Shown piece by piece: positions 769 through 32,811 of a stretch of DNA of 32,811 bases. The DNA comes from an uncultured Bermanella sp. (GTDB lineage Bacteria; Pseudomonadota; Gammaproteobacteria; Pseudomonadales; Oceanobacteraceae), in contig CAJXRF010000062.1 in the NCBI GenBank assembly GCA_913058575.1, positions 1 through 32,811 of the forward strand, given 5' to 3'. Within the stretch, counting starts at the first letter, position 1. Each line of letters starts with the position of its first letter. The notes under the pieces are model-generated. The model was not told the origin of the DNA and searched no databases. It saw nothing but the letters and a program-made list of their open reading frames with translations. The translations under genes and the position numbers were made by a program.

Positions 769-811
769 TACTTAATTGCATTAAGCGAATTTAGATTTAG
801 CAGGAGAATAT

Positions 812-3889: not shown

Positions 3890-3891
3890 TC

Positions 3892-14425: not shown

Positions 14426-14525
14426 CCTTATTATTATTGGCTAAATATCCCTAGCGATGATTAAACACGCTTTAAACTGGGTTATTTAATTCATTGAGTT
14501 TAGCAGTGAAGCTTGCTTGGTGAAA

Positions 14526-15293: not shown

Positions 15294-15362
15294 AATGAAA
15301 CCTTCATGGGTTTAACATTGATCCCATATTCATACAAAGCATTGAGGATAAAACTGATTTGT

Positions 15363-15391
15363 AAAAAAGTCCTCCAATCATAGATTGGAGG
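15363..15391 (-). terminator. Terminator of the porin gene
   Basis: Perfect 9-bp stem CCTCCAATC/GATTGGAGG with a 3-base loop, followed on the minus strand by AC and six T. It is 24 bases beyond the porin stop and separates the porin transcript from the racemase gene. Confidence 0.85.
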
Positions 15392-15414
15392 CAAAAGGGC
15401 ACAACTAAAACGGT

Positions 15415-16485: not shown

Positions 16486-16640
16486 GGTAACTCCAATTTT
16501 TTAAGTGACTTATACGTCTTATTTTTCCATCACAATGTAATGTCTGTCTTCCTGAATAGACATGTAACACTTTCTACTTTCCAGGCGCTGACCAATACAT
16601 AAATGCAAAAGTCAGTCTGAAAATTAATTTCTATTGATGT

Positions 16641-18090: not shown

Positions 18091-18166
18091 ATATAAAGAG
18101 GAGAAACTCACGGTGAAAGCTACAAAACATGGGCATTTCGCCCATAAACAGCCGCGAATCAAATAG

Positions 18167-18210
18167 CTATAACTAAAGTTATGAGCATACAAAAGTTATA
18201 GGTGTTTAAA
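18167..18210. promoter_or_regulatory. Distal activator-site candidate upstream of the symporter
   Basis: CTATAAC (18167-18173) and GTTATAG (18195-18201) form an inverted pair with a 21-base spacer, followed by GTGTTTAAA. A further inner dyad ATAACT-AA-AGTTAT lies inside. The spacer is 11 bases longer than at the aspA distal site, about one helical turn. The rest of the gene-free stretch 17910-18635 holds the sigma-54 promoter, the proximal site, a small dyad (18320-18335) and the operator at 18520. Confidence 0.5.
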
Positions 18211-18519
18211 ATGTTGAAGATGGACCCATTTATTGCCTAGTGTCATTAGGTAAAAGCAGGCTGCAATACAAAATACGGGTCATATTCAACAAGGCAGGCG
18301 ACTATGTTTACCAAAAACTTATACTGTAAAGTATAGATCGAATGCCTAACTATTTATTGCATCATTTTTTAATAGATGCTCACACTTTACAGTCATACTT
18401 TTTAGCAAAAAAATTATTTATCACATAAATTTTATTATCAGAACTCGCAATTAACATCATTATTGTTTTTTATAAACACAACACTATTCCATTCCAAAAA
18501 TCCCTTACCTCCTCAGCAA

Positions 18520-18533
18520 TACAACACGTTGTA
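18520..18533. promoter_or_regulatory. Operator of the TRCAACnnGTTGYA family, upstream of the SCP2 gene
   Basis: TACAACACGTTGTA, with perfect 6-bp arms and a 2-bp centre, 102 bases before the SCP2 gene start. One of seven copies between here and 31.5 kb. Confidence 0.72.
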
Positions 18534-18635
18534 ATATACGAATGTAAAGGCTAATATGCCACTAGAAATACACTGCATTAATTGAGTTTATTTTCTAATT
18601 ATAATAAATAAGTTAACCAAAATACCGGAGGGTAT

Positions 18636-18989
18636 ATGAAGTTTAAAATCGTGTTATGGGTATTAGGTCGGATAATGGCGAGGGCCGAGAAAACTAACCC
18701 CGCTTTTAAAGACAAATTAAAGAATCAAGATATTACAATGGAAATTAAAAGTCATGACGGTGCCGCACGGCACTTCATATTTAAGGAGCAAACGGTTAGA
18801 AGCTATCCGGGGCCTGCCCACCAACCCAATCTAAGTCTAAATTTCAAAAACTCTCACATTGGTTTTAATGCTTTCACTTCCAAGGATAAAAAGAAAGCCA
18901 TGATGAACTGCATTAAGGAGAAAAACATCGACATAGAAGGTAATACAAGTACCCTGATTTGGTTTCAAAGTCTCGCCAAATTAATCTAA
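18636..18989 (+). CDS. SCP2 sterol-carrier-like lipid-binding protein
   Basis: Small soluble protein of 117 residues that looks like a single SCP2-type domain. It has an N-terminal helix (VLGRIMARAEKTNPAFKDKL), a strand pair around ITMEIKSHDGAARHFIF, the SCP2-like pattern PNLSLNF about 30 residues later, and a final amphipathic helix (LIWFQSLAKLI). Such domains bind acyl chains, sterols or other hydrophobic ligands. GGAGGG is ideally placed before the ATG. An operator lies 102 bases upstream and a strong terminator directly follows, so it is a single-gene unit. A decayed second copy exists at 22247. Family assignment is by pattern only; the ligand is unknown. Confidence 0.75.
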   Translation: MKFKIVLWVLGRIMARAEKTNPAFKDKLKNQDITMEIKSHDGAARHFIFKEQTVRSYPGPAHQPNLSLNFKNSHIGFNAFTSKDKKKAMMNCIKEKNIDIEGNTSTLIWFQSLAKLI

Positions 18990-19004
18990 TTTACATTTTC
19001 GGTT

Positions 19005-19041
19005 AATAACAAAAGCATCACCGCTTTTGTTATTGTTTTTT
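19005..19041 (+). terminator. Terminator of the SCP2 gene
   Basis: Perfect 12-bp stem AATAACAAAAGC/GCTTTTGTTATT with a 6-base loop, followed by G and six T, 16 bases beyond the SCP2 stop. Confidence 0.87.
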
Positions 19042-19130
19042 ATTTCCTTATTTAAAGAAGTTTTATTCACCTTTAATCATAAGTGCTTATTCCCAGCGCC
19101 TCTATCAGACATACTTAAGGACACCTCTAT

Positions 19131-19161
19131 GAATAGCTTGCGCCTTTGGCGCAAGCTATTC
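19131..19161 (-). terminator. Strong hairpin at the end of the flavin monooxygenase gene
   Basis: Perfect 14-bp stem GAATAGCTTGCGCC/GGCGCAAGCTATTC with a 3-base loop, 2 bases past the monooxygenase stop. No T-run follows on the minus strand (ATAGAGG), so it may be a stability hairpin or an atypical terminator. On the plus strand CTTTT follows. Confidence 0.5.
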
Positions 19162-19163
19162 TT

Positions 19164-20900
19164 TTATAACCCCAAAATACTTTTCATGGCTATCAGTAAA
19201 TCTAAGTTAGGGTTTTTACTTTTTTTATCACAGCGCCAAGCTACGAATCTATCTGGGCGCACTAACACACAACCATCGTCACCCACTTCCCGCCGTTTAG
19301 CCCAATGACCCAGCACATCACAATACTGGTCTTGCCCCATGCCCACTTTCACCACCTTTAAATTAATGGGTAATTCCTTTCTAACGACATTAACAGCCTG
19401 AATCCAATCATCACCACCAGCACCCACTATAAGTGTGAAGCTATCATAAGAGACTAAATCTAGGGTGGAAGTATATTGCGTACCTGACTGTAACCAAACA
19501 TGGGGAATATGCGCACCCGGATGAGTCGTTTGTTGATAATGCAATGCAGGGTCTTCTGCGTATTTTGGAAAGGGTTGACCATCATTCATTACCGCTGTTG
19601 ATTGATAGCGCTGACCTAACTCAAACCCCAGCGCATTGAATTGATGGTTCATTAATTCCATGGCTTCCATCATTTCTCCCCGTCTTTGGCTACCTAATTC
19701 ACTGCCCCCTAATAATTCTTCTAAAATCGCTTCTCCTTCGGCCTTCGTTTGGCCTGGCTCTAAACCTAGCGCCCCAAGAAAAGGGAACACCTCCACTATG
19801 TTGCGATTGGCCCTGTCCACCATGGCTCGCCCCACGGGTTGGCGTTCATCATTATATGAATTAAGCAATGATTCATCGGCTTGGCCTTTCAATACCAAGG
19901 CCAGTTTCCAAACTAGATTATAGGCATCTTGAATAGAGGTATTACTGCCTAATCCCCCGGCAGGTGGGTGACGATGAGCGGCGTCTCCTGCGATAAAGGC
20001 ACGACCGTTACGATATTGGTTCGCCCACACGTGATTTATACTCCAGTCACTGATCTTCTTAATCTTCACTTCAATACTAGGATCGCCAATGGCCATGCGT
20101 ATTCGTTCCATTACACTTTCTTCGGTAATTTCCCCTTTTAACTGATCATCCAGTGCAAAAATAGTGCTCCATTCATTCCAAGGCTCAACACACGTCCAGA
20201 TACTTAAAATATCTTTACTGCCAGGTGTTAACACAAAGAAAAGAGCCCCTGATCGGTGCTGAGTATATTGACTAAGGTCCGCTTCAATCCAAACCGTAAT
20301 CGCATCACCCAGCCCATGCTTGCCCTGAAAATCAAACTCAAATTGACTGCCAACCAATGTCTTGGCGCCGTCGCACCCAATCACATATTTAGCGCGAACT
20401 TGGTAAGTTTCACCGGTTTTGCGTTGCCGAATAGTCGCCGTTACCCCCTTCTCATCTTGTTTTATTTCAATTGCTTCATGATTAAAGCGAATATCAGCGC
20501 CAAACCCTTTGGCAGCCTCTAACATAATCGGCTCAAGGGTATGCTGAGCTATATTACACATGGCACTAGGACTTGAATCTTTATATTCTCCTTTGCGGTC
20601 ATGTCCTTCTCCCCATGTCATCATTCGGGCAAACTCTTTACCAGAAAATGAAGTAGCAAAAACTTGATTCCCCATCAGTTCTTGAGGTAATGCTCGGGCT
20701 TTAATTTTATCTTCTATACCCAGGTCTCGTAATATTTCCATCGCTCGCATGTTAGTCACATGAGCACGAGGCGCATTGGCGGTTCCACCAAATTTAGTCA
20801 CCGTGATAGAGGGAATAGCCGAGCGTGCCAGTAATGCAGCCGCTGTTAATCCTGCCGGACCGGCTCCCACCACTAATACATCTGTATTGATTACTTTCAT
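19164..20900 (-). CDS. FAD-dependent aromatic-ring monooxygenase, TfdB/PheA-like
   Basis: Class A flavoprotein monooxygenase of 578 residues, expected to hydroxylate a phenolic or similar ring with NAD(P)H and O2. The ATG at 20900 (MKVINTDVLVV) has GAGG 5 bases upstream; the earlier in-frame ATG at 20918 has none. The dinucleotide fold GAGPAG lies at about residues 12-17. The DG motif is in VIGCDGAKTLVG and the GD motif in FIAGDAAHRHPPAGG. The C-terminal thioredoxin-like domain has the LDLV..DSFTLIVG stretch usual in 2,4-dichlorophenol and phenol hydroxylases. Two operators lie 52 and 83 bases upstream. The substrate is not predictable. Confidence 0.88.
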   Translation of the reverse strand: MKVINTDVLVVGAGPAGLTAAALLARSAIPSITVTKFGGTANAPRAHVTNMRAMEILRDLGIEDKIKARALPQELMGNQVFATSFSGKEFARMMTWGEGHDRKGEYKDSSPSAMCNIAQHTLEPIMLEAAKGFGADIRFNHEAIEIKQDEKGVTATIRQRKTGETYQVRAKYVIGCDGAKTLVGSQFEFDFQGKHGLGDAITVWIEADLSQYTQHRSGALFFVLTPGSKDILSIWTCVEPWNEWSTIFALDDQLKGEITEESVMERIRMAIGDPSIEVKIKKISDWSINHVWANQYRNGRAFIAGDAAHRHPPAGGLGSNTSIQDAYNLVWKLALVLKGQADESLLNSYNDERQPVGRAMVDRANRNIVEVFPFLGALGLEPGQTKAEGEAILEELLGGSELGSQRRGEMMEAMELMNHQFNALGFELGQRYQSTAVMNDGQPFPKYAEDPALHYQQTTHPGAHIPHVWLQSGTQYTSTLDLVSYDSFTLIVGAGGDDWIQAVNVVRKELPINLKVVKVGMGQDQYCDVLGHWAKRREVGDDGCVLVRPDRFVAWRCDKKSKNPNLDLLIAMKSILGL

Positions 20901-20952
20901 ACTCGCCTCGTCGCACATTTAGGTTACTCGCTTATATTTTAACTTACACTAT

Positions 20953-20966
20953 TACAACGCGTTGCA
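20953..20966. promoter_or_regulatory. Operator copy nearest the flavin monooxygenase gene
   Basis: TACAACGCGTTGCA, 52 bases before the monooxygenase start. Its centre is 31 bp from the next copy, close to three helical turns, so two repressor dimers could bind the same face. Confidence 0.72.
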
Positions 20967-20983
20967 ATCAAATTACACAATAT

Positions 20984-20997
20984 TGCAACCTGTTGCA
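20984..20997. promoter_or_regulatory. Second operator before the flavin monooxygenase gene
   Basis: TGCAACCTGTTGCA, extended to perfect 9-bp arms TATTGCAAC and GTTGCAATA around a 2-bp centre (20982-21000 region). It has the longest perfect dyad of the seven copies. Confidence 0.75.
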
Positions 20998-21069
20998 ATA
21001 TCCTAAGTAGTTTATTGAAAATTAAGCGAGAGAATTCGCCGGACAAAGAAAATCATCACAAGGAATAAT

Positions 21070-21133
21070 AATGAGGCCCCTGAAAGTTCAGAGTCAATTT
21101 TAAAAATCAATGACTCTTTAATGGGGCCGCATT
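21070..21133. other. Large two-tier inverted repeat, function unknown
   Basis: Outer arms AATGaGGCCCC (21070-21080) and GGGGCCgCATT (21123-21133) pair at 10 of 11 positions. Inner arms AGAGTCA (21090-21096) and TGACTCT (21111-21117) pair perfectly. The AT-rich centre could pair further. It lies between the monooxygenase promoter and the end of the broken TetR gene. It could be a terminator for the TetR transcript, a small structured RNA or a short mobile-element remnant. Confidence 0.5.
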
Positions 21134-21176
21134 TGTAAAAAATGGGAAAAGGGAAAGGGAAAACAAGCGCTATTGA

Positions 21177-21830
21177 CTACAGTTTTTTTAAACTCATAAA
21201 GAGGTTTTCATGAGTTTCTGATAATATACGAGCACTTTTTTCAGTACTAAAGGGCAGCATAGACACACAGCAACCATACAAACTATTTGAAATAGCAACC
21301 GATAAGGAAATATTTAAGCCCGCCCACATGCCTAAATTTCCCAGAAAACCCACCACCAAATGTTCTGTAAACGTGGCTGGGCATAAACTAACCACTAATT
21401 CGTCGTTTTCAATGGCTCGCTTAATGATGGAATAAATAAAACCCCTAGCCTGCACAATAGCGGCTTTTCGAGTTTCTGAGTCATCTGAGCTCATTACCTC
21501 ACGATAAATACTCTGTAAAAAGTCATGATTTTAACTTATGTCTTCACCAACCTGCCCAATACAATCCAGTAAGTTTCGCACTGCTAAATCAGACTCTACA
21601 ATATTTACCATAAGAAATGCGTGACCTATGGATTCTTCAAGCAACTCCACAAGTACAGCTGCTTTAGAGGAAAATAGGTTATAAGGGGTTCGAGAGCTAA
21701 TACCCGCTTCAGCCGCAATATTTCGCATAGTAAGTTTAACTACGCCATCATTTAGAATTATTTTCTTACTCGCAGTTAAAATCTTCCTTCTATTTTCATC
21801 TTGCTGCCTTTCCTTATAAGTTAAGATAAT
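21177..21830 (-). pseudogene. TetR-family regulator, broken by a nonsense codon
   Basis: One continuous frame encodes a TetR-like protein of about 217 codons. The N-terminus (KERQQDENRRKILTASKKI) leads into the helix-turn-helix (LTMRNIAAEAGISSRTPYNLFSSKAAVL) and then an all-helical ligand domain ending in FMSLKKL. A TAA at 21531-21533 interrupts it in frame after VGEDIS; reading resumes as NHDFLQSIYREVMSS with no shift. No ATG/GTG/TTG precedes the helix-turn-helix. AGGAG at about 21834 is followed by ATT ATC where a start is expected, suggesting start loss as well. Internal ATG 21728 lies inside the DNA-binding domain. A sequencing error is possible for one lesion, less so for two. Confidence 0.8.
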
Positions 21831-21931
21831 AAACTCCTAATTAACCATAAACTAAAGTCGAGCATTAAAGTGTCCTTCTATCAGCTAATAACCAGAATTA
21901 TTCAGGGAATATATTTTTGTGAAAAAGCCAA

Positions 21932-21970
21932 AATTAATCCATCATAAAAGCTACCATCTAATTGAACATT
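21932..21970 (-). pseudogene. Remnant of an SDR C-terminus
   Basis: The minus strand reads NVQLDGSFYDGLI, against NVQLDGGSYDGLI at the very end of the SDR gene at 24882-25658. Bases ACCATCTAATTGAACATT are identical between the two. It is a 13-codon scar of a second SDR gene, next to the decayed duplicate segment. Confidence 0.65.
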
Positions 21971-22141
21971 CCACCCATAAATAACAGCGCAGGAAACCTG
22001 CTACAATTAAAGTCATGGGCGTACAAAAATCATGAGTGCTTGAAATATTAAAGAAGAACCAGTTTGTTGTTTAACTTCATTAAGTAAGTTCAAGTCGCTA
22101 GCTAATGACTAGATACGTAAAACACCTACCACAAGCAAGAT

Positions 22142-22155
22142 TGCAACGCGTTAAA
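22142..22155. promoter_or_regulatory. Decayed operator copy before the SCP2 pseudogene
   Basis: TGCAACGCGTTAAA keeps TnnAACnnGTTnnA, but the right arm has lost the GTTGYA match. It occupies the same place relative to the SCP2 pseudogene as the intact operator does at 18520. Confidence 0.5.
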
Positions 22156-22246
22156 CATAAAGACTAATATATCATTTGAAATGCACTGCAATTACAAAGT
22201 TAACTCACTAATTAAAACAAATATTACAAAAAATACCGAAGAGCAT

Positions 22247-22425
22247 GTAAAATTTGAAATTATGTTCTTAATTTTGGATCGATTTATGAAGAGAGCTAAT
22301 AAAACCAACCCGACCTTCAAAGACAAATTAATAAATCAAGACATTACAATGAAAATAAAATTCCATGATAAACTGAATTAAAGAGAGGGCTATCGAAATT
22401 AAAGACAATACAGCGTAATGACTTG
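22247..22425 (+). pseudogene. Decayed duplicate of the SCP2 gene
   Basis: The product FEIMFLILDRFMKRANKTNPTFKD and onward closely matches the N-terminus of the SCP2 protein at 18636. The start ATG has become GTA (22247-22249) and the ribosome site GGAGGG has become GAAGAG. After CATGA (22364-22368) the sequence jumps to the equivalent of 18899 onward. In the intact gene CATGA occurs at 18753 and 18899, so a 146-bp deletion between these 5-base repeats, which also shifts the frame, explains it. Homology to the 3' part (AAATTAAAGACAATACA) continues past the stop. Confidence 0.85.
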
Positions 22426-22574
22426 CTTTAGCAATAAAAGCTCTCCTAGTTTTGTTACAGCATCATCTCTTGTAAATAGGTTTTATTTTTCCTTAATTAT
22501 ATTCTCATAATTATTAACTCTCATGCCTGACTTCCTTTATCAGAGATCATCAAGGCATTAACAATTTTTTATAC

Positions 22575-22740
22575 CTTAAAATTAATTTTCAATGCAATAA
22601 GTAAATCTGACTTACTCTTTTATTGCTGCATCATGCTATAAATCGATCTGAGGCGTACTAGTGCACAACCGCCTTATTACAGCGGCGATTAAATTCATAG
22701 CTAAGCAAGTGATCACAAAACGTGTTGCTATCGGCACTAT
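22575..22740 (-). pseudogene. Remnant of the 3' end of a second flavin monooxygenase gene
   Basis: On the minus strand, fragments FCDHLLSYEFNRR, GGCALVR and KSKSDLLIALK appear in the order and spacing of YCDVLGHWAKRR, DGCVLVR and KSKNPNLDLLIAMK in the intact enzyme's C-terminus (19164-19330). Stops and frameshifts interrupt it. It lies in the same relation to the SCP2 pseudogene as the intact pair, so both come from one duplicated segment. Together with the SDR remnant and SCP2 pseudogene this accounts for most of the otherwise gene-free stretch 21831-22807. Confidence 0.78.
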
Positions 22741-22807
22741 CAATATTAAAAGATTAATTATTTGTAGTGCCTTATATAATATTATTTATAATACCAAGCT
22801 TAATCGT

Positions 22808-24637
22808 CTAGTAACGATACTCTCCCCTTTCAATTTTTTCCTGTATGCTTTCTGTTAGCTTTACGTAACCATCACTTTTAGGAAGCCGGACATAAACAGA
22901 ATTTTGATTTCGTTGTAAATCAAACCCTTGCTCTTTTAAAGGCGCTTTTAAATGCTTAAATGTCTGAGTGAGTTCAACTTGCTTATTAATGCTTAAAAAA
23001 ACTGGAATAGCATAGTCAGGCATATTTTCTTGTAATTTGTTTAACAGCCCCTTAAAATCGAGCGTATTCTCCGCCACGCTTATTCCAATAGAAGCCATAC
23101 CTGCGCGGCCTTCCGTATTAGGAATTTCCACCCCATAAACAATGGCTTCACGAATTTCCTTCATTTCTTCTAATAACATTTCTACTTCAGTGGTGGATAC
23201 ATTCTCTCCCTTCCATCTAAACGTATCTCCGGTACGGTCTATGAACTGTGCATGACGATAGCCCATATTGCGCATTATATCTCCCGAATTAAACCACTTA
23301 TCTCCTTTTTCAAATACATTTTCTAGAATAGTAGAGCGAGTTTTAGCTGCATCCGTATAACCATGAAACGGATTTTCATCTGTGATACAACCAATTAGCA
23401 ATCCTACCTCACCTTTAGGCACTTTCACTAACTGGCCTTTTTCATTTTTAAGTGGTGAGTCCGTTTCTTTATCGTACTTAACAATGGCATATGGCAAAGG
23501 GCACATACCGACTGTTTGATCAAAATTTAACAGATTCGTAAAACCGATATTACCTTCACTTGAGCCGTAAAACTCCATAACTTTTTTTATGTTAAATCGA
23601 TTTTTAAATTTTTTCCATATACTAGGACGCAACCCATTTCCAACAATAATACGCACCTTATGATCACGCTCATTTTCTCTCATAGGCTGCTCTACCAAAT
23701 AACGGCATAACTCTCCAACATACCCAAACGATGTTGCACCATAGGCCTTAATATCTTTCCAAAAATTCGTCACACTAAATTTTCTAGTTAGAATTAATGT
23801 GGCATTACCAGCAATAACCGAGCTTAAACATCCCCCTAATGCAGTGGCATGGTAAAAAGGCAATGGTACGTACATTCGATCATTTTTTTTAAGCCTAACC
23901 GCTGTTATCCCAAAAGCACCATATATTTTCATAAATCGTCCGTGATTAAACACTACAGCTTTTGGCAACCCAGTGGTTCCGGATGTATATAGATAAAAAC
24001 AAGGGTCATCCCTAAAAATATTTTTAGTATTCAGGGGATTAACTTTACTGTGCGTCGAAATTTCTTGAGACAAATTCTGCCAGCCTCGCGGTGCTTCATA
24101 GGAAATTTTTAAGGTATCAAGGTCAGCTAAATATAAATGATTTACATCTTCTATGTGCGTATTATGACGCACATCATCATAGTTGCTAATGCACTCTTCA
24201 CCGGCAATTATTAATTTTGGATTAACTAAATTAACACTGTGTGTCAGTACCCTGCCTTTTTGGGAAGTATTCAACATAGCACTAACCGCACCTATTTTTG
24301 CGCAAGCATAAACTGTAGCCAATAATTCTGGACGATTTTCAATTAGTACTGCAACACAGTCCCCTTTCTTTATACCTTTAGCTGATAAGAAGTGTGCTAT
24401 CTGATTACTCCACTGATTTAACGCTTTGTACTGAATGGATCGATCTTGATACAGGATGGCAATTCCCTGTGGGTTCTTTTTAACCGCTTCTTCAAAACAC
24501 AGGCCTAATCCCACCATTTTTTTCTTATCAGTATTATTGGTAATGCGCATTCCCTTTAAGATATGAGGAATATGCCCAATAATTGTAGGAAGTTTTTTAA
24601 TAATTTGCGTAGCACTGATAACGTCAGCTTCACTCAT
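22808..24637 (-). CDS. FATP/FadD6-like long-chain or bulky-acid acyl-CoA synthetase
   Basis: AMP-forming acyl-CoA ligase of 609 residues that activates a carboxylic acid to its CoA thioester. The P-loop motif YLYTSGTTGLPKAV lies at about 210-223, YGSSEGN in the middle, and the FATP-type motif DRTGDTFRWKGENVSTTEVE near 480. These separate it from short-chain ligases and place it with the very-long-chain/FATP (SLC27-like) group, some members of which use bile acids or branched acids. AGGA lies before the ATG. The SDR gene is 244 bases upstream on the same strand. I see no operator directly before it, so it may be read from the SDR promoter. Confidence 0.88.
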   Translation of the reverse strand: MSEADVISATQIIKKLPTIIGHIPHILKGMRITNNTDKKKMVGLGLCFEEAVKKNPQGIAILYQDRSIQYKALNQWSNQIAHFLSAKGIKKGDCVAVLIENRPELLATVYACAKIGAVSAMLNTSQKGRVLTHSVNLVNPKLIIAGEECISNYDDVRHNTHIEDVNHLYLADLDTLKISYEAPRGWQNLSQEISTHSKVNPLNTKNIFRDDPCFYLYTSGTTGLPKAVVFNHGRFMKIYGAFGITAVRLKKNDRMYVPLPFYHATALGGCLSSVIAGNATLILTRKFSVTNFWKDIKAYGATSFGYVGELCRYLVEQPMRENERDHKVRIIVGNGLRPSIWKKFKNRFNIKKVMEFYGSSEGNIGFTNLLNFDQTVGMCPLPYAIVKYDKETDSPLKNEKGQLVKVPKGEVGLLIGCITDENPFHGYTDAAKTRSTILENVFEKGDKWFNSGDIMRNMGYRHAQFIDRTGDTFRWKGENVSTTEVEMLLEEMKEIREAIVYGVEIPNTEGRAGMASIGISVAENTLDFKGLLNKLQENMPDYAIPVFLSINKQVELTQTFKHLKAPLKEQGFDLQRNQNSVYVRLPKSDGYVKLTESIQEKIERGEYRY

Positions 24638-24692
24638 AATTGATCCTTTTAATCACACAATTTCAACTCACAAGTATGGCCAGTGAGTTAAT

Positions 24693-24741
24693 GCCCAAGA
24701 ATTTTCGGTTTTAGTTTTACTTTACATAAATATTCTTGGGC
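24693..24741. repeat. Inverted repeat between the SDR and acyl-CoA synthetase genes
   Basis: Perfect 10-bp arms GCCCAAGAAT (24693-24702) and ATTCTTGGGC (24732-24741) with a 29-base AT-rich loop. The long loop and lack of a T-run argue against a terminator. It could be an mRNA processing or protein-binding site. Confidence 0.45.
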
Positions 24742-24881
24742 AACTACTTAACTTAATTTCGGCCGCACCTATGGATTAATTGAAGTCACAATTACCCAGA
24801 TGGCCTTGCGTTACATGAAGAGATAGGGGAATGAATTAAATATACAAAAACAGACATTTTCCCGTTATAGACTTGACATAA

Positions 24882-25658
24882 TTAAATGAGGCCATCGTAT
24901 GAGCCACCATCTAATTGAACATTTTGACCTGACATATAACTTGCTTGCTGGCTACAAAGAAATGCGCAGGTATCACCAAATTCTTTTGGCACTCCCATTC
25001 GTCCTGCGGTGATGCGAGACACCAGTTTTTTACGGGCATCATCATAACTCACCTTAGTAAAACGCATAATTAATTCAGCATTTTTCTGCTGGCGTCCGGT
25101 ATCAAACATTTCAGGCAAGATGTTATTGATAGTGACATTACTCATAACGGCTTCTTTAGATACCGCTTTACAAAGAGCCGTTACCGCGGTGCGTGTGGCG
25201 CTGGAGACACACATAATGGGCGATGGCGATTTCACCATGGCTGAGGTGATATTAATAATGCGTCCAAACTTACGTTTTCTCATGCCGGACAAAACGGATT
25301 GAATCATAAAGATAGGCGCCATCATGTTAGCCGCGATGGCATCATCCCAATCCTGTTGAGTGCTCTGCATAAACCCCACTGGGTTAGGACCTGCATTATT
25401 GTTTATTAGAATGTCTGGTTCAGGACAAACTTCAAGGAGTGACTTACGGCCAGCCTCTGTGGACACGTCTGCCTGAATAATGGTGACTTGCCCACCTGCA
25501 TCGCTAATTTCTTTCGCTGTGGCTTGCAAGGTTTCCAAGGTGCGGCCATTTATAAATACATGAACCCCTTCTTGACTCAAAGAAATAGCGCAAGCTTTTC
25601 CCAAACCTTCACTTGATGCGCATACCAGCGCTTTTTTTCCTGAAATTCCTAAATCCAT
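24882..25658 (-). CDS. Short-chain dehydrogenase/reductase family protein with atypical active site
   Basis: SDR-fold protein of 258 residues. The N-terminal cofactor motif is CASSEGLGKA (13-22), NNNAG lies at 86-90, N111 corresponds to the catalytic-tetrad Asn and S139 to the catalytic Ser. At the position of the YxxxK pair it has S152-SAT-R156, so both the Tyr and Lys are replaced. The same SxxxR pattern is known to me from a divergent SDR branch annotated as FabG-like. Whether it is a reductase, a dehydrogenase or something else is open. GAGG lies before the ATG. It is transcribed divergently from the hydrolase gene, sharing an operator 140 bases upstream. Confidence 0.85.
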   Translation of the reverse strand: MDLGISGKKALVCASSEGLGKACAISLSQEGVHVFINGRTLETLQATAKEISDAGGQVTIIQADVSTEAGRKSLLEVCPEPDILINNNAGPNPVGFMQSTQQDWDDAIAANMMAPIFMIQSVLSGMRKRKFGRIINITSAMVKSPSPIMCVSSATRTAVTALCKAVSKEAVMSNVTINNILPEMFDTGRQQKNAELIMRFTKVSYDDARKKLVSRITAGRMGVPKEFGDTCAFLCSQQASYMSGQNVQLDGGSYDGLI

Positions 25659-25797
25659 ATTTACCTCACTGCCTGAATATTCATAAACATTTACAGTGGC
25701 TATTATAAAAACACCATAAATACCGATATGGCTGGCACTGTTTTTTAGTAGCCATCAAGCCAACCTTTCGGCCACCATAAATCAACAACCTAAATTA

Positions 25798-25811
25798 TGC
25801 AACATGTTGTA
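25798..25811. promoter_or_regulatory. Operator in the divergent SDR/hydrolase promoter region
   Basis: TGCAACATGTTGTA lies 140 bases from the SDR start and 56 bases from the hydrolase start, so one site could control both directions. Confidence 0.72.
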
Positions 25812-25866
25812 ATTAAAATTCATCCTGTATATGCTCATAAATAGTTAACCAGAAGGAGTTAGTATC

Positions 25867-26853
25867 ATGGGTATTTCGGTCATTCGTTTTCAAAGGTCTC
25901 AACATTCACAACCTCAGTGGGGGTTACTGGAAGACGAGCTGGTTCATGAACTGCCTTGGCAAGAGCAAGAGTTAAGCGAAGTCATAAATAGGTTAGCCCC
26001 TCCTTTTAGTTACTTACGCCAATTGACCACCAATACAGGGCTATCACTTAGTCAAGTAACCGTGTTAAGCCCCCTCACCTCCAATTCACAGTTACTTTGT
26101 CAGGGACTCAATTACGCTGATCATGCAGCGGAAGCTGGCGCAAAAAAGCGCACACCTAATAATTCAGAAAATTCATTATTTTTAAAATCCAGTGCCTCGC
26201 TAACAGGCGCCTATTCAGACGTAGTCAGACCAAGCGAGTGTCGGTTATTGGATTATGAAATTGAACTAGGACTGGTGATTAAGAAAAACATAGATAAGGC
26301 GGTTACCATAAACCAAAAGCAGCTTGCAGAATATGTAGCTGGTTTTATTATTTGTAACGATGTATCAGCCCGCGATGTTCAATTGGGTGCCCCTGCCATG
26401 CAATGGTTCCAAGGAAAAAGCTATCGAAGCTTTTGCCCAGCTGGACCCATTCTGTATATTTTAGATGAAAACGAAATAGAACAACTTCCTCAATTACAAC
26501 TAAGACTATGGGTAAACGGTAAACTACGTCAAAACGGCATCACATCACAACTCATTCATAAGCCTCACCACACCCTGCAACACATTTCTAGATTCAGCAA
26601 TATGAAAGCGGGTGATTGCTTATTAACAGGCACTCCTGGTGGCGTTGCTTTAGAAATGAATTTAAAAACCGGTATTTCGATATTGCTAAATATGAGTAAG
26701 GACGCCAAACGTAAGGAAAAATTTACCAAGGCACAAATTTTAAACACCCAATATTTACAAGATGGCGATGTCATTGAAGCTCAAATCAGCAGTCAAGATG
26801 GCAGTATTCACCTGGGAAAACAAAAGAATATTGTCGTGCCTGAACTGGCGTAA
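25867..26853 (+). CDS. Fumarylacetoacetate hydrolase (FAH) family protein
   Basis: Metal-dependent C-C hydrolase or isomerase/decarboxylase of the FAH fold, 328 residues. The metal ligands sit in LLDYEIELGLVI (ExE pattern, about 126-137) together with the Asp in NDVSARDVQ. GKSYRSFCPAGP supplies the conserved lysine and TGTPGGVA the C-terminal signature. Such enzymes act on ring-cleavage products (fumarylpyruvate, acylpyruvates, hydroxymuconate derivatives). GAAGGAG precedes the ATG. The GST gene follows after 33 bases, and a FAH plus GST pair is typical of gentisate or homogentisate-type lower pathways. No ring-cleavage dioxygenase is visible in this window. Confidence 0.88.
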   Translation: MGISVIRFQRSQHSQPQWGLLEDELVHELPWQEQELSEVINRLAPPFSYLRQLTTNTGLSLSQVTVLSPLTSNSQLLCQGLNYADHAAEAGAKKRTPNNSENSLFLKSSASLTGAYSDVVRPSECRLLDYEIELGLVIKKNIDKAVTINQKQLAEYVAGFIICNDVSARDVQLGAPAMQWFQGKSYRSFCPAGPILYILDENEIEQLPQLQLRLWVNGKLRQNGITSQLIHKPHHTLQHISRFSNMKAGDCLLTGTPGGVALEMNLKTGISILLNMSKDAKRKEKFTKAQILNTQYLQDGDVIEAQISSQDGSIHLGKQKNIVVPELA

Positions 26854-26886
26854 TTAAGATTTTCATTCACTATAGGAGTCATCATC

Positions 26887-27753
26887 ATGTTGGTCGAAAA
26901 CGAAAACATAGCCACCGAATGTGTAAAATATTGGCAAGGATTACATTTATTATACTTCCCGTTATCATCCTGCTCTCAAAAAGTTCGAATTCTTTTAAAA
27001 GAAAAAGAAATTGATTTTACTTCTCACATAATTGACCTTAAAAAAGGCGAGCAAACTACACCTTGGTTTTTAGGTATTAACGCCCGCGGCGTTGTGCCAG
27101 TATTGGTTGATAATGGCCAGGTGCATATCGAGAGCAATGACATTCTTTACCACCTTGATAAAAACCACCCATCAAGTAAACCTTCGCTAATGCCCAGCAC
27201 TGCCCCCGAAAAAGCGCTGGCTAACATCATTCTTAAAATGGAAGACAACATGCACGATCACATGCGGGTGATTACCATGAAATATTTAGCCCCAAACAAA
27301 ATGATGCGTAAATCAGACCAGCAATTAAAAAACTACAGTGAAAATGGCGTGATCAATGATTACCGTAATAAGCAAATCAATTGGTGGCGAGACTTTTCGA
27401 AAAAAGGCATCACCAATGAACAACTTAAGAGTGCCATATTAGCCTTTAATCAATCGCTCTCATGGTTAGACAACCATTTAAGGGGTCATGATTTTTTACT
27501 TGGAAAAAGTATTTCCATTGTTGATATATCTTGGTTCATTACCTTGCACCGCTTGAGTCTAGCGGGTTTTCCATTGCATCTTCATCCACATTTAAAATGC
27601 TATTATCAATCCTTACTAAAGCGCCCTCATTTTAGAAAAGAAGTTTCAGCAGGATCATGGCCGTTGCGAATTTCTGCTTGGATTTTTCGTCAAGGTAAAC
27701 GTTTAACAAGTCCTTCTTTAACCTATTCCCATAGGCTTTTAATAACCAATTAA
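26887..27753 (+). CDS. Glutathione S-transferase family protein
   Basis: GST of 288 residues, longer than the usual 200-230. A thioredoxin-fold N-domain (about 18-95) carries SSCSQKVRILL with the probable catalytic Ser/Cys pair. NARGVVPVL contains the cis-proline and IESNDILYHL the glutathione gamma-glutamyl contact (ES). A helical C-domain follows, with an insertion near 130-165. AGGAG precedes the ATG. Next to the FAH-family gene it may isomerise a maleyl- to a fumaryl-type intermediate or handle an epoxide or quinone; this is inference. Confidence 0.8.
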   Translation: MLVENENIATECVKYWQGLHLLYFPLSSCSQKVRILLKEKEIDFTSHIIDLKKGEQTTPWFLGINARGVVPVLVDNGQVHIESNDILYHLDKNHPSSKPSLMPSTAPEKALANIILKMEDNMHDHMRVITMKYLAPNKMMRKSDQQLKNYSENGVINDYRNKQINWWRDFSKKGITNEQLKSAILAFNQSLSWLDNHLRGHDFLLGKSISIVDISWFITLHRLSLAGFPLHLHPHLKCYYQSLLKRPHFRKEVSAGSWPLRISAWIFRQGKRLTSPSLTYSHRLLITN

Positions 27754-27815
27754 TATTAAACCCACCTGTTTTACGCTATGCCTATAAAAATCTCGAAACA
27801 ACCAAATATAATAAG

Positions 27816-27829
27816 TACAACACGTTGTA
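27816..27829. promoter_or_regulatory. Operator upstream of the DUF1302 gene
   Basis: TACAACACGTTGTA, 114 bases before the DUF1302 start and identical to the copy before the SCP2 gene. A 10-bp hairpin (27870-27879 with 27884-27893, TGGTTTTCAG/CTGAAAACCA) lies between it and the start. Confidence 0.72.
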
Positions 27830-27893
27830 ATTTACATCTTTTAAAGATACGCTTCACCTGGTAAAGCGCTGGTTTTCAGTACACTGAAAACCA

Positions 27894-27921
27894 CAAAAAA
27901 CAAAAAACAAAAAACAAAAAA
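27894..27921. repeat. Tandem heptamer repeat (CAAAAAA x4) in the DUF1302 leader
   Basis: Four perfect direct copies of CAAAAAA immediately follow the hairpin and end 22 bases before the ATG at 27944. Such slippage-prone tracts can vary in copy number and alter leader length. Confidence 0.75.
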
Positions 27922-27943
27922 ATAACAATAAATGAGGGGAAAT

Positions 27944-29932
27944 ATGAATTCATTAAAAACACACCCAAATCTTGGCAAAAAAAAATGCCTAGCGGTCATA
28001 CTTCCACTTGCCATGGCCGCTCAAGCTCAGGGATTTGAATTTTTCATGGGTGAGATTGAAGGCAATCTTGATAGCCAATTATCTATGGGGTCTAGCTGGC
28101 GACTTGAACCACAAGACACCAGGCTCACACAGGGAATTACAGGAACCAGCGTTTTATCAGAAAATCAAAATGATGGCGATTTGAATTATGAAAAAAATGA
28201 TATTTTTTCAAACGTAGTTAAAGGCAGTCACGAATTACAAGTAAAATACCAACACTACGGAGCCTTAGTACGAGGTAAATATTGGTACGATGAAGCATTG
28301 GAAAATAACGATGACTTAGATGATAGCGACTACCATGACTTAGCCAAATTTTCAGGAGCCGAAATACTGGATGCCTTTGTTTACGGTGAGTTTGATGTAT
28401 TAAATATGCCCGTGGACATTCGTTTGGGCAAACAAGTAGTAAGTTGGGGGGAATCAACATTTATTCGCGGCGGCATCAATCAAATCAATCCCGTTGATAT
28501 TTCATCTTTTCGCCGCCCCGGCGCTGAAATTAAAGAGGGTTTAATTCCGGTTAACATGGCCTTCGCAAGCGTTGGCATTTCAGACAACTTAAGCTATGAA
28601 ACATTTTATCAATTGGATTTTCAAGAAACCGTCACCGAAGGCTGTGGCACATTTTTTTCAACCAACGATTTTCAGCCCGACGGCTGTAATACCATATCCA
28701 GCCCAGTGGGTGATATTTCTCGTCATGTCGATGGTAATCGCAGGCCCGATAGCGATGGTCAATTTGGGGTGGCCATGCGTTATTTTTCAGAGACACTGGA
28801 TACTGAGTTTGCCTTTTATGCCATGAATATTCACAGTCGATCACCGTTAATAAGTGGCGAAAAATCCGTCTTTGATGAATATGCTTTCTTAACCTCGGGC
28901 TCTCCTGTTTTAAATGCCATGCGTAATGAACTCACTTCTGGAGACGCAGCTGATTCATCCAACTACGATCAATTAGTCGCTGCTAATGATGCCTATATTG
29001 CCGCCAACACCGCAGCCCTCATGAACCCAACAGATGCCACCGCTGCTGCCACTGCACAAGCCACGCAAGCGGCCACCGCCGAAGCACGACAAGCTTTAGC
29101 AGAAGTTAATGTGGGCTTGTTAAGCATATTATCTACCAACAGTGGTGCTGCTATTGGTGCTACACCTCAAACTTATTACATCGAATACCCTGAAGACCAA
29201 CAAATTGCCGGAATCAGTTTTGCTACCACAGTCGGTAGTATTGCACTCTCTGGTGAAGTGACTCATAAGTTAGATATGCCACTACAAATCAATTCTGAGA
29301 CCCTATTAGCTGCCTCTGTACAAGCAGATGGCACATATGCCTATGTTTACGATGCCATGGGAGGCGCAGCTAACCAAGTAGCGGCAAATGACGCTGCACG
29401 CGGCGCTGTTTATGACGCTTACGGCTCTCTGGGCATAGACATTTTGGACACCCAAGACGGAGCAGGTACCACTGGTTATCGAACGTTTGACGTGAGCCAA
29501 GCACAATTTACGGTCGTTAAGCTTATTGACCAAGTACTCGGCGCCAGCCAGATCTCCATTGTCGGTGAAATGGGTTACACCTACATACACAACTTTAAAG
29601 GGGACATTCCTTTTTCAGGTGATGAGTTTTTAAATGATGTGGTCACAGAATCTTCATGGGGTTATCGCACCCGCATCTTAGCTAAATACAACGATGCTTT
29701 TGCAGGGGTAAATCTGTCTCCTGAGTTGGCATGGAGCGAAGACGTAGACGGCGTTTCGCCCGCTCCTGGTGGTAGCTTTATCGAAGGCCAGCAGGTTTTC
29801 AGCGTTAGCCTAAATGCCGAGTACCAAAACACGTACACCTCTTCTATTGCCTACACCCAGTATTCAGGGGGCACCACCAACACGTTAAGCGATCGTGATT
29901 TCGCCTCTTTCATGCTTGGCATGCAATTCTAA
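27944..29932 (+). CDS. DUF1302 family outer-membrane barrel-like protein
   Basis: Exported protein of 662 residues. The ATG at 27944 has GAGGGG 5 bases upstream; the earlier ATG at 27932 overlaps that site. The signal peptide is basic (KKK) then hydrophobic (AVILPLAMAAQAQG). The mature start FEFFMGEIEGNLDSQLSMGSSWR, the RLGKQVVSWGES..IRGGINQINPVD region and the FRRPGAE stretch are typical of DUF1302. The chain ends in LGMQF, as expected for a barrel. An Ala/Thr-rich low-complexity stretch (about 340-385) lies in the middle. DUF1302 and DUF1329 genes commonly occur together in clusters for hydrophobic substrates; uptake is suspected but unproven. Confidence 0.86.
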   Translation: MNSLKTHPNLGKKKCLAVILPLAMAAQAQGFEFFMGEIEGNLDSQLSMGSSWRLEPQDTRLTQGITGTSVLSENQNDGDLNYEKNDIFSNVVKGSHELQVKYQHYGALVRGKYWYDEALENNDDLDDSDYHDLAKFSGAEILDAFVYGEFDVLNMPVDIRLGKQVVSWGESTFIRGGINQINPVDISSFRRPGAEIKEGLIPVNMAFASVGISDNLSYETFYQLDFQETVTEGCGTFFSTNDFQPDGCNTISSPVGDISRHVDGNRRPDSDGQFGVAMRYFSETLDTEFAFYAMNIHSRSPLISGEKSVFDEYAFLTSGSPVLNAMRNELTSGDAADSSNYDQLVAANDAYIAANTAALMNPTDATAAATAQATQAATAEARQALAEVNVGLLSILSTNSGAAIGATPQTYYIEYPEDQQIAGISFATTVGSIALSGEVTHKLDMPLQINSETLLAASVQADGTYAYVYDAMGGAANQVAANDAARGAVYDAYGSLGIDILDTQDGAGTTGYRTFDVSQAQFTVVKLIDQVLGASQISIVGEMGYTYIHNFKGDIPFSGDEFLNDVVTESSWGYRTRILAKYNDAFAGVNLSPELAWSEDVDGVSPAPGGSFIEGQQVFSVSLNAEYQNTYTSSIAYTQYSGGTTNTLSDRDFASFMLGMQF

Positions 29933-29994
29933 CTAAATCCTAAATAAATATAAAAAAAGTGATCGCCTGCAACAAAGGCGATCAAGGAGAAAAA

Positions 29995-31332
29995 ATGAAA
30001 AAAAATATACTCAGCCTCGTCACTTTAACGCTTTTGGCACAAGGGGTTCATGCAAAAGTTAGCACGCAGCAAGCGCAACAATTAGGCAAAAATTTAACGG
30101 CCATTGGCGCGCAAATAAGCGCCAATGATAGTGGCACCATCCCCGCTTATACCGGCGGTTTAGCCCATGACGTGAACACGGATCCTTATATTAATATTTA
30201 TGCCCATGAAGCGCCGCTTTTCACTATTACCAAAGCGAACCTTGAACAATATAAAAATAACTTAACCCCAGGTCAGATAGCCATGTTTGAACGCTATCCT
30301 GATACCTACAAAATGCCGATCCATGTCACACATCGCAGTGCCAGCGTACCGACAGCCATCAAAGAAAAAGCCAAGAAAAATGCCATTTCCGCAGATCTGT
30401 TGGCCAATGGAAATGGCTTAACTAACTTTGACGAAAGCATCCCCTTTGCCATCCCTCAAAATGGCCTAGAAATCATTTGGAATCACATTACTCGATTCAG
30501 GGGGGGAAGCTCTCAACTAAACCGCGCCACTATCCCAGTACAAAGAGATGGCAGTTTCACCCCCATTAAAGTCAGTGCCAATTACAGCCCACCTCAGTAT
30601 TTAAGTGATGGTTATCATGCACAAGATGATAAAAATATTTTATTTTATTATTCGTCACACATTAAATCCCCTGCCCGATTAACAGGCAATGTGCTGCTGG
30701 TACATGAAACCATTGATCAAATAAGTGAGCCCCGTAAAGCATGGCAATACAATGCAGGCCAACGCCGCGTGCGACGCGCGCCACAGATAGCTTATGACTC
30801 CCCTAATACCGAAGGCATGCGCACATCAGATCAAGTGGATATGTTTAATGGTGCGCCAGATCGATATAACTGGAAATTAGTCGGTAAAAAGGAAATATAC
30901 ATTCCTTACAACGCCTATAAAATAATTGATAAAGATTCTAAATATGAAGACATTATTGGCCCAGGCCACATTAACCAAAGTTACACCCGTTACGAATTAC
31001 ATCGCGTATGGCATGTAGAGGCCACGCTTAAAGAAGGGGCTCGACACATTTACGGAAAACGTGTTTTGTATTTAGATGAAGACAGCTGGCAAATTTCCGT
31101 GGCCGATCATTATGATCACCGCGGGCAGTTATGGCGTGTATCTGAAGGACACACCATGCAGTTTATTAATGCCAATACGCCATGGTATAGCGCCATTACC
31201 AACTACGACCTACAATCGGGGCGATATATGGCCGAACTCAATAGTGAAGAACGTCATGCTTTCAAATTCAATCAAACACTAAAGCGCAATGACTTTACCA
31301 CTGCTGCCATTCGCAGAAGCGGTAAACGTTAA
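29995..31332 (+). CDS. DUF1329 family exported protein
   Basis: Exported protein of 445 residues. The ATG at 29995 follows AAGGAG; the in-frame GTG at 29959 would precede the signal peptide with an implausible leader. The signal peptide is KKNILSLVTLTLLAQGVHA. The mature part shows DUF1329 marks: GNLTAIGA-like KNLTAIGAQ, an IPAYTGG motif, QYNAGQRRVRRAPQ, and WHVEATLKEGARHIYGKR near the end. The fold is thought to be LolA-like, and it probably partners the DUF1302 protein, whose gene ends 62 bases upstream. A terminator follows at 31376. Confidence 0.86.
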   Translation: MKKNILSLVTLTLLAQGVHAKVSTQQAQQLGKNLTAIGAQISANDSGTIPAYTGGLAHDVNTDPYINIYAHEAPLFTITKANLEQYKNNLTPGQIAMFERYPDTYKMPIHVTHRSASVPTAIKEKAKKNAISADLLANGNGLTNFDESIPFAIPQNGLEIIWNHITRFRGGSSQLNRATIPVQRDGSFTPIKVSANYSPPQYLSDGYHAQDDKNILFYYSSHIKSPARLTGNVLLVHETIDQISEPRKAWQYNAGQRRVRRAPQIAYDSPNTEGMRTSDQVDMFNGAPDRYNWKLVGKKEIYIPYNAYKIIDKDSKYEDIIGPGHINQSYTRYELHRVWHVEATLKEGARHIYGKRVLYLDEDSWQISVADHYDHRGQLWRVSEGHTMQFINANTPWYSAITNYDLQSGRYMAELNSEERHAFKFNQTLKRNDFTTAAIRRSGKR

Positions 31333-31375
31333 TAAGCAGCCTACAGATAAACGTACTTTTTACACTTAAAAAACT

Positions 31376-31407
31376 AAGCCCTAACCATTGATTTGCAGGG
31401 CTTTTTT
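31376..31407 (+). terminator. Terminator of the DUF1302-DUF1329 unit
   Basis: 7-bp stem AAGCCCT/AGGGCTT with a 14-base loop, followed by a T-run to 31407 (six T in total after the C). It is 43 bases past the DUF1329 stop. Confidence 0.75.
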
Positions 31408-31475
31408 AGGTCCCCCTTTCCGATTGAACTAATTCTTTCCAAAATTTTTATTTTAACTTTTCTTTAAAATTAAAA

Positions 31476-31489
31476 TGCAACGCGTTGTA
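31476..31489. promoter_or_regulatory. Operator upstream of the small membrane protein gene
   Basis: TGCAACGCGTTGTA, 94 bases before the ATG. A -10-like GATAATATT (about 31505-31513) lies just downstream. Confidence 0.72.
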
Positions 31490-31583: not shown

Positions 31584-32054
31584 ATGGAAATTTTATTCGA
31601 GCAAAATATGCTTCCTCGCATTCTAATGACGATTACCGCCATTGGACTGGCCTTTGGCCCTGCCATTGCTGATTTTAATAAAACTCACGCCACCAATCCT
31701 TTATGGCCGCCTCACGCACGCTTCCATGTGGTTTGGCAAGTAATCACAAACAGTGCCCTCTCATTATTCATGCTGTACCTGTTATGGACACCGTTGATTG
31801 AGCAATACGATTTACAACTAAAACTGGTGGCCATTGTTCAATTTACAATCTTGGTTCCGGTTTACATCACGATTGCCTGCATGGGACTATTTGGTGGCGC
31901 ACTAAAAGACGTGAATGGTTTAAGACCATTTGTTTTTAATATTGGTGGACGTATTTGGGAAGTCGATACCAATGCCTTTAATTTCACCCTTACCATCGCG
32001 GTAGTGAGCATTGCAGTCATCACGATTCAATCATCAGTCGTTTTAGCGGTTTAG
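31584..32054 (+). CDS. Small four-helix membrane protein, unknown function
   Basis: 156 residues with four predicted membrane helices, near 10-28, 50-68, 82-104 and 132-153. An acidic/aromatic loop DFNKTHATNPLWPPHARFHVV follows the first helix and holds two conserved-looking histidines. I cannot name the family with confidence. GGAG precedes the ATG. An operator lies 94 bases upstream, and the second flavin monooxygenase gene starts 31 bases downstream, so the two are probably one operon. It could be an accessory membrane component of that pathway. Confidence 0.8.
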   Translation: MEILFEQNMLPRILMTITAIGLAFGPAIADFNKTHATNPLWPPHARFHVVWQVITNSALSLFMLYLLWTPLIEQYDLQLKLVAIVQFTILVPVYITIACMGLFGGALKDVNGLRPFVFNIGGRIWEVDTNAFNFTLTIAVVSIAVITIQSSVVLAV

Positions 32055-32085: not shown

Positions 32086-32811
32086 ATGACTAATTTAATA
32101 AAAACAAATGTGTTGATTGTGGGCAATGGCCCATCTGGCATGACCACCGCTTTAACCTTAGCTAAATTTGGCATCGCCTGTACGATCATTGAACGCCGCC
32201 CATCTTTATATATGGAGCCGAGAGCCCACGCTCTGAATTCAAGAACACTGGAAATTTTCTCAGCCCTTGGAATTCAAGTAGACGAATTCAAAATACTGGC
32301 CACCCCCACAAAAGAAAGTAATTGGGTGCGCTGGGTAGATAAACTCAATGGCAGCGAATATGGAAAACTGCCTTATGAAAGAATGACAGATGAAGGTGAC
32401 TTACCTAGCCCCTTCCCTTTATTTAATATTTCACAGCCAAATTGTGAACGGGTTTTACAAAAATACGTAGACCAAGAAAGTTTGATTACCACACTTCGTC
32501 CTTATAATTGGGTATCTTGCGAACAAATAGAAGAAGGCGTTATATCAATAGTCAAAAATGAACAAGGCATAGAGCAGAAATTTTTAAGCCGGTATTTAGT
32601 GGGTGCTGATGGGGCAAACAGCCCAGTGAGGCGTTCACAAGATATCGCGATGCAGGGCATGGGAATAGTACAAGAATTTAAAATGATTCATTTTAAAGCC
32701 GATTTAACCAGCATCGTCAAAGACAAACCCGCTATTCTTTATTGGTTAATGTCACAAGATTGTATGGGTACTTTAATTGCCTATGACATTCGTGATAACT
32801 GGGTATTCATG
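32086..32811 (+). CDS. Second FAD-dependent monooxygenase, N-terminal part (3' end outside window)
   Basis: The frame is open from ATG 32086 to the last base (242 codons), so the gene runs off the window. The product has the FAD fold motif GNGPSG (about residues 12-17), a basic stretch IERRPS.YMEPRAHALNSRTLEIF typical of MhpA/PheA-like hydroxylases, and the DG motif YLVGADGANSPVRR near 170-180. It is clearly related to, but distinct from, the monooxygenase at 19164-20900. AGGAAG precedes the ATG. It is probably co-transcribed with the small membrane protein gene under the operator at 31476. Confidence 0.9.
   Translation, partial: MTNLIKTNVLIVGNGPSGMTTALTLAKFGIACTIIERRPSLYMEPRAHALNSRTLEIFSALGIQVDEFKILATPTKESNWVRWVDKLNGSEYGKLPYERMTDEGDLPSPFPLFNISQPNCERVLQKYVDQESLITTLRPYNWVSCEQIEEGVISIVKNEQGIEQKFLSRYLVGADGANSPVRRSQDIAMQGMGIVQEFKMIHFKADLTSIVKDKPAILYWLMSQDCMGTLIAYDIRDNWVFM

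Follow-up and report, generated by a model that had tools for sequence, protein, structure and literature searches.

Gene content of the cluster

The window analysed here is a complete contig of 32,811 bases from the genome of an uncultured Bermanella sp., and in its latter part catabolic genes are interspersed with copies of a palindrome, TRCAACnnGTTGYA (Table 1). Its last 55 bases are identical to the first 55 of a second contig, C30 (an exact overlap), whose first reading frame continues the second FAD monooxygenase; the genes that follow on C30 include one for an intact regulator of the TetR family.

Table 1. Genes and putative operators of the cluster, in window coordinates unless prefixed with C30.
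Feature	Position	Strand	Remarks
Putative operator 1, TACAACACGTTGTA	18520..18533		102 bp before 117-aa gene (18636)
117-aa protein gene	18636..18989	+	behind operator 1; earlier label SCP2
FAD-dependent phenol-type hydroxylase (hydroxylase 1)	19164..20918	-	sequence match to solved structures
Putative operator 2a, TACAACGCGTTGCA	20953..20966		34 bp before hydroxylase start
Putative operator 2b, TGCAACCTGTTGCA	20984..20997		tandem with 2a, 31 bp start to start
Broken TetR gene	21180..21797	-	TetR_N domain, one in-frame stop
Decayed duplicate of parts of 18134-19216	21967..22621	+	four blastn blocks, 71-73% identical
Decayed operator, TGCAACGCGTTAAA	22142..22155		between duplicated blocks
Long-chain acyl-CoA synthetase	22808..24637	-	PRK08279, over its cut-off; behind SDR gene
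Short-chain dehydrogenase (SDR)	24882..25658	-	50% identical homologue near relative TetR in locus L095
Putative operator 3, TGCAACATGTTGTA	25798..25811		between divergent SDR and FAA hydrolase genes
Fumarylacetoacetate-hydrolase-family enzyme (FAA hydrolase)	25867..26853	+	followed by GST gene
GST-family protein	26887..27753	+	maleylacetoacetate-isomerase model, under its cut-off; homologue (49% identical) in locus L094
Putative operator 4, TACAACACGTTGTA	27816..27829		102 bp before DUF1302 gene
DUF1302 protein	27932..29932	+
DUF1329 protein	29959..31332	+	after DUF1302 gene
Putative operator 5, TGCAACGCGTTGTA	31476..31489		94 bp before DUF6640 gene
DUF6640 membrane protein	31584..32054	+	48% identical homologue in locus L095
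Second FAD monooxygenase	32086..32811	+	cut by contig end; continues on C30
SCP2-like gene	C30:1007-1390		after second monooxygenase
Intact TetR, 220 aa	C30:1519-2181		second gene after second monooxygenase; TetR_N E 8.6e-10, over cut-off
Aldolase-like gene	C30:2200-2862		PF00596, E 3.9e-8; after intact TetR
LysR-like gene	C30:3418-4350	other strand	named by eye

The nearest solved relatives of hydroxylase 1 are 2,4-dichlorophenol 6-monooxygenase and 2-hydroxybiphenyl 3-monooxygenase. Outside its own genome the closest hydroxylase among 369 genomes of the class is 43% identical (genome G332), and its cluster contains a LigB-type dioxygenase, an aldehyde dehydrogenase and another TetR. The cluster also has the acyl-CoA synthetase and the SDR, but phenol hydroxylases are the closest kin of hydroxylase 1, and the targets of the cluster look aromatic rather than sterol. 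The window genes scanned include no recognisable ring-cleavage dioxygenase, and none was spotted by eye along the first 16 kb of C30. The label SCP2 that an earlier note on this DNA had given to the 117-aa protein found no confirmation: searches with the protein against Pfam (E 0.1 or better) and the PDB (E up to 10) gave no match, and its fold model (pLDDT 39.7) is unusable.

Distribution of the palindrome

The strict motif occurs in six exact copies in the window, compared with a mean of 0.02 and a largest count of 1 in 100 dinucleotide shuffles of the same sequence. The earlier note had listed seven coordinates, and all are right: six belong to the exact copies and the seventh, at 22142, to a copy with two mismatches that the note had already called decayed. 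It had also placed the copies upstream of catabolic genes, and indeed all six exact sites lie in intergenic DNA before genes of the cluster, though only 13.3% of the window is intergenic. Nor is there an exact copy in the first 18 kb, as the note had observed; three matches with two mismatches do fall there, and are included in a total of 10 such matches for which the shuffles give a mean of 5.77. A weight matrix built from the six sites scores them at 21.7-27.3 bits, the copy at 22142 at 13.3 and the next-best place at 11.0. Seven of the 12 site arms read TACA rather than TGCA. The symmetry continues in part into the next two bases on each side (outer AT), and on visual inspection the flanking sequences show no resemblance to one another beyond about two bases.

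When the whole genome (5,719,961 bases in 186 contigs) was scanned, every exact copy proved to lie in this cluster, the six in the window being the only ones. With up to one mismatch allowed there are 38 matches genome-wide, 32 of them outside the window, against 66 for a reversed-pattern control; as the motif is thus rarer than its control, nothing points to additional sites outside, and the regulon seems confined to the cluster. The looser pattern of the mycobacterial regulator KstR, TnnAACnnGTTnnA, is likewise not enriched over the genome (157 matches, control 300) and is enriched in the window, with seven matches against a mean of 0.98 and a largest count of 6. In a scan of 55 genomes with the extended 18-bp motif at up to one mismatch, 10 of the 54 other genomes had one or two matches and none had more; the two matches inspected (loci L039 and L041) lie inside unrelated reading frames.

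The copy at 22142, with its two mismatches to the strict motif, yet fits TnnAACnnGTTnnA. It lies in a segment that partly repeats the surroundings of operator 1, for blastn pairs 18134-18253 with 21967-22087, 18545-18757 with 22158-22368, 18888-18947 with 22353-22412 and 19162-19216 with 22567-22621, in collinear order. Since these blocks flank position 22142, the decayed operator sits between duplicated blocks, approximately in the place of operator 1 and beside a ruined copy of the gene.

Intact and broken TetR genes

Two TetR genes accompany the cluster. The mid-cluster gene is broken by its stop codon in a frame that is otherwise uninterrupted, and no ATG, GTG or TTG stands in frame before its helix-turn-helix; its TetR_N match (E 2.0e-7) is nonetheless over the cut-off. 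It is about 30-31% identical to the intact C30 protein, and another TetR of the genome, on contig C10, is a paralogue at 26% identity with one two-mismatch site nearby and no homologous cluster around it by eye. Among 369 genomes of the class the intact protein is matched at E 1e-12 in one, its own. The broken one is matched in 131 of 293 genomes of the order at E 0.001, in most over the DNA-binding domain alone, its best match outside its own genome being in G247 (8.9e-20).

In a tree of 83 rows the C30, broken and C10 TetRs form one clade of 14 rows with their 11 nearest relatives (L092-L102; support 97/98), though the placing of these three is unsure because of their long branches and unusual letter make-up. 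The fold was modelled on the relative from NOR5-3 as a stand-in for the C30 protein: the model (pLDDT 93.4, ten helices) has the all-helical TetR fold with a C-terminal ligand domain, and the 50 PDB fold matches listed for it are TetR-type regulators.

The gap before the intact gene (C30:1300-1530) lacks TnnAACnnGTTnnA even when one mismatch is allowed, so the C30 TetR has no operator in a promoter of its own.

Candidate operators before related TetR genes

With one genome per species scanned, 161 relatives of the C30 TetR came to light, of which the best 80 were kept. TPYNLF in the recognition helix is common to them largely by construction, because both query patterns take in the helix-turn-helix region. 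In the 150 bp upstream of the TetR start, TnnAACnnGTTnnA with up to one mismatch is found at 47 of the 80 loci (62 sites in 12 kb), whereas the reversed pattern gives 3 sites at 3 loci in the same zones; the other 33 relatives have no site there. Elsewhere in these loci (1.39 Mb) the pattern gives 331 matches and its reverse 384. Measured over a common 200 bp, the count is again 47 of 80 (control 3), and it reaches 11 of 11 in the nearest relatives (control 1), whereas among other TetRs it is 1 of 29 for the genome under study (reversed 4) and 5 of 24 for the order (reversed 2). Exact TnnAACnnGTTnnA within 200 bp precedes 24-25 of the 80 relatives (reversed 2), 0 of the 29 and 0 of the 24. The 29 are the loci obtained for 30 of the genome's 42 TetR_N matches, less C30; the 24 (L057-L080) came from the search with the broken TetR. 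The earlier note had suggested looking for a TetR gene with the motif in its own promoter: such genes exist among the relatives, in the looser form, and the C30 gene is not one of them.

None of the 80 relative loci has an exact copy of the strict motif, and the outer bases differ, being TRCAAC here and TATAAC or TGACAC in the nearest relatives; conservation is therefore limited to the looser operator. Directly before the TetR gene, TTGACACRYGTTATAA occurs once each in nine loci at up to three mismatches (exactly in L093-L098 and L100-L101, with one mismatch in L102); these are NOR5-3 and eight alphaproteobacterial loci, the close Erythrobacteraceae/Sphingorhabdus loci not being independent of one another. 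Each of the nine has one site, and none at other promoters of its cluster. The scored site of L102 adjoins the start codon and is probably a chance match; the true operator there is likely to be TTGACACGCATTATAA, a candidate that departs from TnnAACnnGTTnnA at two places. In the class that overlaps a -35 element (TTGACAC...), the left arm could be partly promoter-derived. Tandem pairs of the TATAAC/TACAAC type are found in L092 (30 bp apart) and L099 (32 bp), like the 31-bp pair of the present cluster.

Homologues of the cluster genes also lie near two of the nearest related TetR genes. Within 6.5 kb of the regulator, L095 has, besides its DUF6640 and SDR homologues, those of the second monooxygenase (38%), FAA hydrolase (33%) and GST (28%); L094 has, besides its GST homologue, those of DUF6640 (36%) and FAA hydrolase (26%). 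In L092 the TetR has a DAPG-hydrolase-like gene and an FAD_binding_4 gene nearby. Regulator clade, operator type and, in the inspected cases, catabolic neighbours thus occur together. In the open-licence literature searched, we recognised no account of this TetR clade with its operator.

A probable local regulon and its alternatives

We hypothesize that the six palindromes are putative operators of one TetR-family repressor whose control, judged by exact copies, is limited to this cluster, and we put the probability of this reading at roughly 80%. A catabolic regulon under a TetR, as the earlier note had proposed, is well supported at the level of sequence by sites exclusive to the cluster, an intact TetR gene in the continuing operon and the looser operator of the relatives. 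The regulator would most likely be the intact TetR of C30, in the predicted operon downstream of the 31476 operator. A dimer bound to each AAC-nn-GTT core would block the promoter, acting as a repressor rather than an activator; a compound of the pathway would serve as inducer by binding TetR and releasing it from the DNA, and the divergent operons would come on together, the pathway probably being switched as a single local unit. With about three helical turns between them, the two tandem sites in front of hydroxylase 1 may be bound jointly and cooperatively. As the gap before its own gene lacks a site, the C30 TetR would be autoregulated by way of the 31476 operator and the operon downstream of it, from which it would be made. 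The mid-cluster TetR, another member of the clade, has died, and a duplicate operator and gene nearby have decayed.

The broken gene raises the question of whether the sites belonged to that regulator, in which case the operators would be relics and the cluster unregulated or constitutive. It adjoins the tandem operators, it is of the same clade, and the operator and gene copies near it have decayed too. We nevertheless think this unlikely: the continuing operon carries an undamaged TetR of that clade, and six operators have stayed exact whereas a seventh, next to the dead duplicate, has decayed, a difference which suggests that the six remain under selection. There is even less to be said for a mobile repeat or a chance cluster: part of the region is indeed duplicated, but the dissimilar flanks, the shuffles, the intergenic position of all six sites and the want of any exact copy elsewhere in the genome refute it for practical purposes.

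Regulators of other descent have also been considered. LacI-type operators are similar even palindromes; their usual centre is CG, however, and that of the present sites is variable. Among other families, BoxR and BzdR bind TGCA repeats (PMC6449761), and the LysR-like gene downstream would offer a regulator at hand. Most arms of the sites, however, do not read TGCA, LysR sites are given as T-N11-A (PMC6449761), and a LacI, a BoxR-type XRE or a LysR protein would leave the operator type before the TetRs of this clade unexplained; we regard binding by any of them as very improbable. No better placed is the proposal of a sterol regulon whose sites are governed by a true orthologue of KstR. The two share the same operator core, and when nine clade members are combined into a profile, KstR chains come among its six best PDB sequences at about 5e-9 (third, at 4.7e-9), with a longer match (positions 6-142 or 6-144 of 215) than that of the top hit (7-93). 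On the other hand, 5gpa (4.3e-9) and 3whb (1.2e-8) score alike, TetR DNA-binding domains being similar in general, and the KstR match is weakly aligned past that domain. With a single sequence as query, KstR stands behind others (E 0.0027, residues 8-62). The recognition stretch is VAVGTLYRYF in KstR and VSSRTPYNLF here, KstR ranks 45th among the fold matches of the NOR5-3 model with a TM-score of 0.53, and no exact TnnAACnnGTTnnA lies near any of the 29 other TetRs tested in the genome. Orthology with KstR was dropped because other TetRs score alike, the recognition helix differs and the fold rank is low.

The evidence thus favours a real, local TetR-controlled regulon, a new one of a familiar type, with binding as its prediction. 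More speculative, and in our estimate possible rather than probable, is a wider proposal: that a little-described TetR subfamily with a TPYNLF helix and a KstR-like AAC-nn-GTT operator, reached by convergence or distant descent, runs catabolic clusters in alpha- and gammaproteobacteria, and that a take-over of regulators happened here, in which the central paralogue died, as did an operator copy and a gene copy nearby, while the distal paralogue kept the six operators. The broken paralogue beside a decaying operator makes such a replacement testable. For the local regulon, a regulator and operator pair can be proposed for a TetR clade, and the sites predict which genes form one pathway, taking in two families of unknown function (DUF1302 and DUF1329) and an uncharacterised membrane protein, DUF6640. 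Given a known inducer, the six operators and their TetR would be candidates for an inducible promoter or biosensor.

Comparison with known regulators

In protein likeness the clade compares with FadR-type TetR repressors, which are its best or near-best PDB profile matches (5gpa and 3whb), mainly in the DNA-binding domain. In the search output 3whb is named 'fatty acid metabolism regulator' and 5gpa a TetR/AcrR regulator, which we take to be a Bacillus FadR. Thermus thermophilus FadR (3anp) has the highest query TM-score, 0.69, among the 50 fold matches listed, and the cluster here does include an acyl-CoA synthetase.

In regulatory layout the cluster resembles that of EdcR, the TetR-family repressor that controls oestradiol catabolism in Caenibius tardaugens; EdcR too acts locally on a catabolic cluster, several of whose promoters carry a palindrome (PMC8700777). 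That comparison is with the described operator, TnnCnnTACnAnTnGTAnnGnnA, which is unlike the palindrome here (PMC8700777). In gene content there is a parallel with betaproteobacterial phenol catabolism, for in the AphS/AphT regulons genes for DUF1302 and PF07044 (DUF1329) are predicted to be co-regulated with it (PMC6449761), and both occur in the present cluster. The motifs given there, AAATmTCGAkATTT for AphS/BphS and T-N11-A for the LysR-type AphT, are unlike the palindrome here (PMC6449761).

The nearest parallel in the operator is KstR (Rv3574/MSMEG_6042), the mycobacterial TetR repressor of cholesterol and lipid catabolism (PMC1995591), to whose operator the earlier note had likened the palindrome; the likeness stands for the operator core (PMC1995591) and finds no confirmation in the protein. 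Common to both are the TetR family and a 14-bp operator with the core TnnAACnnGTTnnA, present in many copies before catabolic genes (PMC1995591). They differ in the outer bases, which in KstR's own promoter read TAGAAC where those here read TRCAAC; in that promoter site itself, which the C30 TetR lacks in its gap; and in spread, as the KstR motif recurs in two genomes at 16 and 31 further positions (PMC1995591) and the motif here belongs to a single cluster. The targets of KstR are those of cholesterol and lipid catabolism, whereas the present ones look aromatic. The regulator would work in the manner of KstR and is not filed as KstR.

Genes and junctions of the contig

Beyond the catabolic cluster, the contig carries the terminal part of a nos operon and a gene set that resembles a unit for taking up amino acids or dicarboxylates (see table). 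Its last 55 bases are exactly shared with the start of C30, the contig that continues it and bears the intact TetR; the second monooxygenase gene is split by an assembly break at this junction. A further patch is in decay, with a broken TetR gene and a ruined duplicate of the region of operator 1 (the motif copy at 18520).

Further features of the contig
Feature	Position	Strand	Content
nos (nitrous-oxide reductase) operon, terminal part	37-4365		NosZ C-terminal part, NosD, ABC ATPase, permease, NosL
Gene set	11274-17909	minus	dicarboxylate symporter, porin, Asp/Glu racemase-like enzyme, histidine kinase with solute-binding domain, sigma-54 response regulator
Patch in decay	21180-22621
Overlap with C30 (L081) 1-55	32757-32811

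Probable operator sites in relatives

Tandem AAC-nn-GTT sites upstream of relatives of the C30 TetR are spaced by 21-23 bp at five loci (L126, L134, L135, L105 and L153), about two helical turns, whereas in L092, L099 and the window the spacing is 30-32 bp, about three turns; spacings of 35 bp (L109 and L111) and 13 bp (L112-L114 and L118) are found as well. On another contig of the window's own genome, two one-mismatch copies of TRCAACnnGTTGYA are separated by 64 bp (C34:36860 and C34:36924). The L110 contig, titled as a Klebsiella pneumoniae MAG, has a G+C content of 63% and may be misnamed.

Exact copies of TnnAACnnGTTnnA also occur near relative TetRs, upstream of other genes (L123, L128, L129, L149, L115 and L130), and the starts of some of the products behind them resemble, as judged by eye, crotonase, Rieske oxygenase and acyl-CoA dehydrogenase. 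Such sites suggest that the regulons of this TetR clade may be wider.
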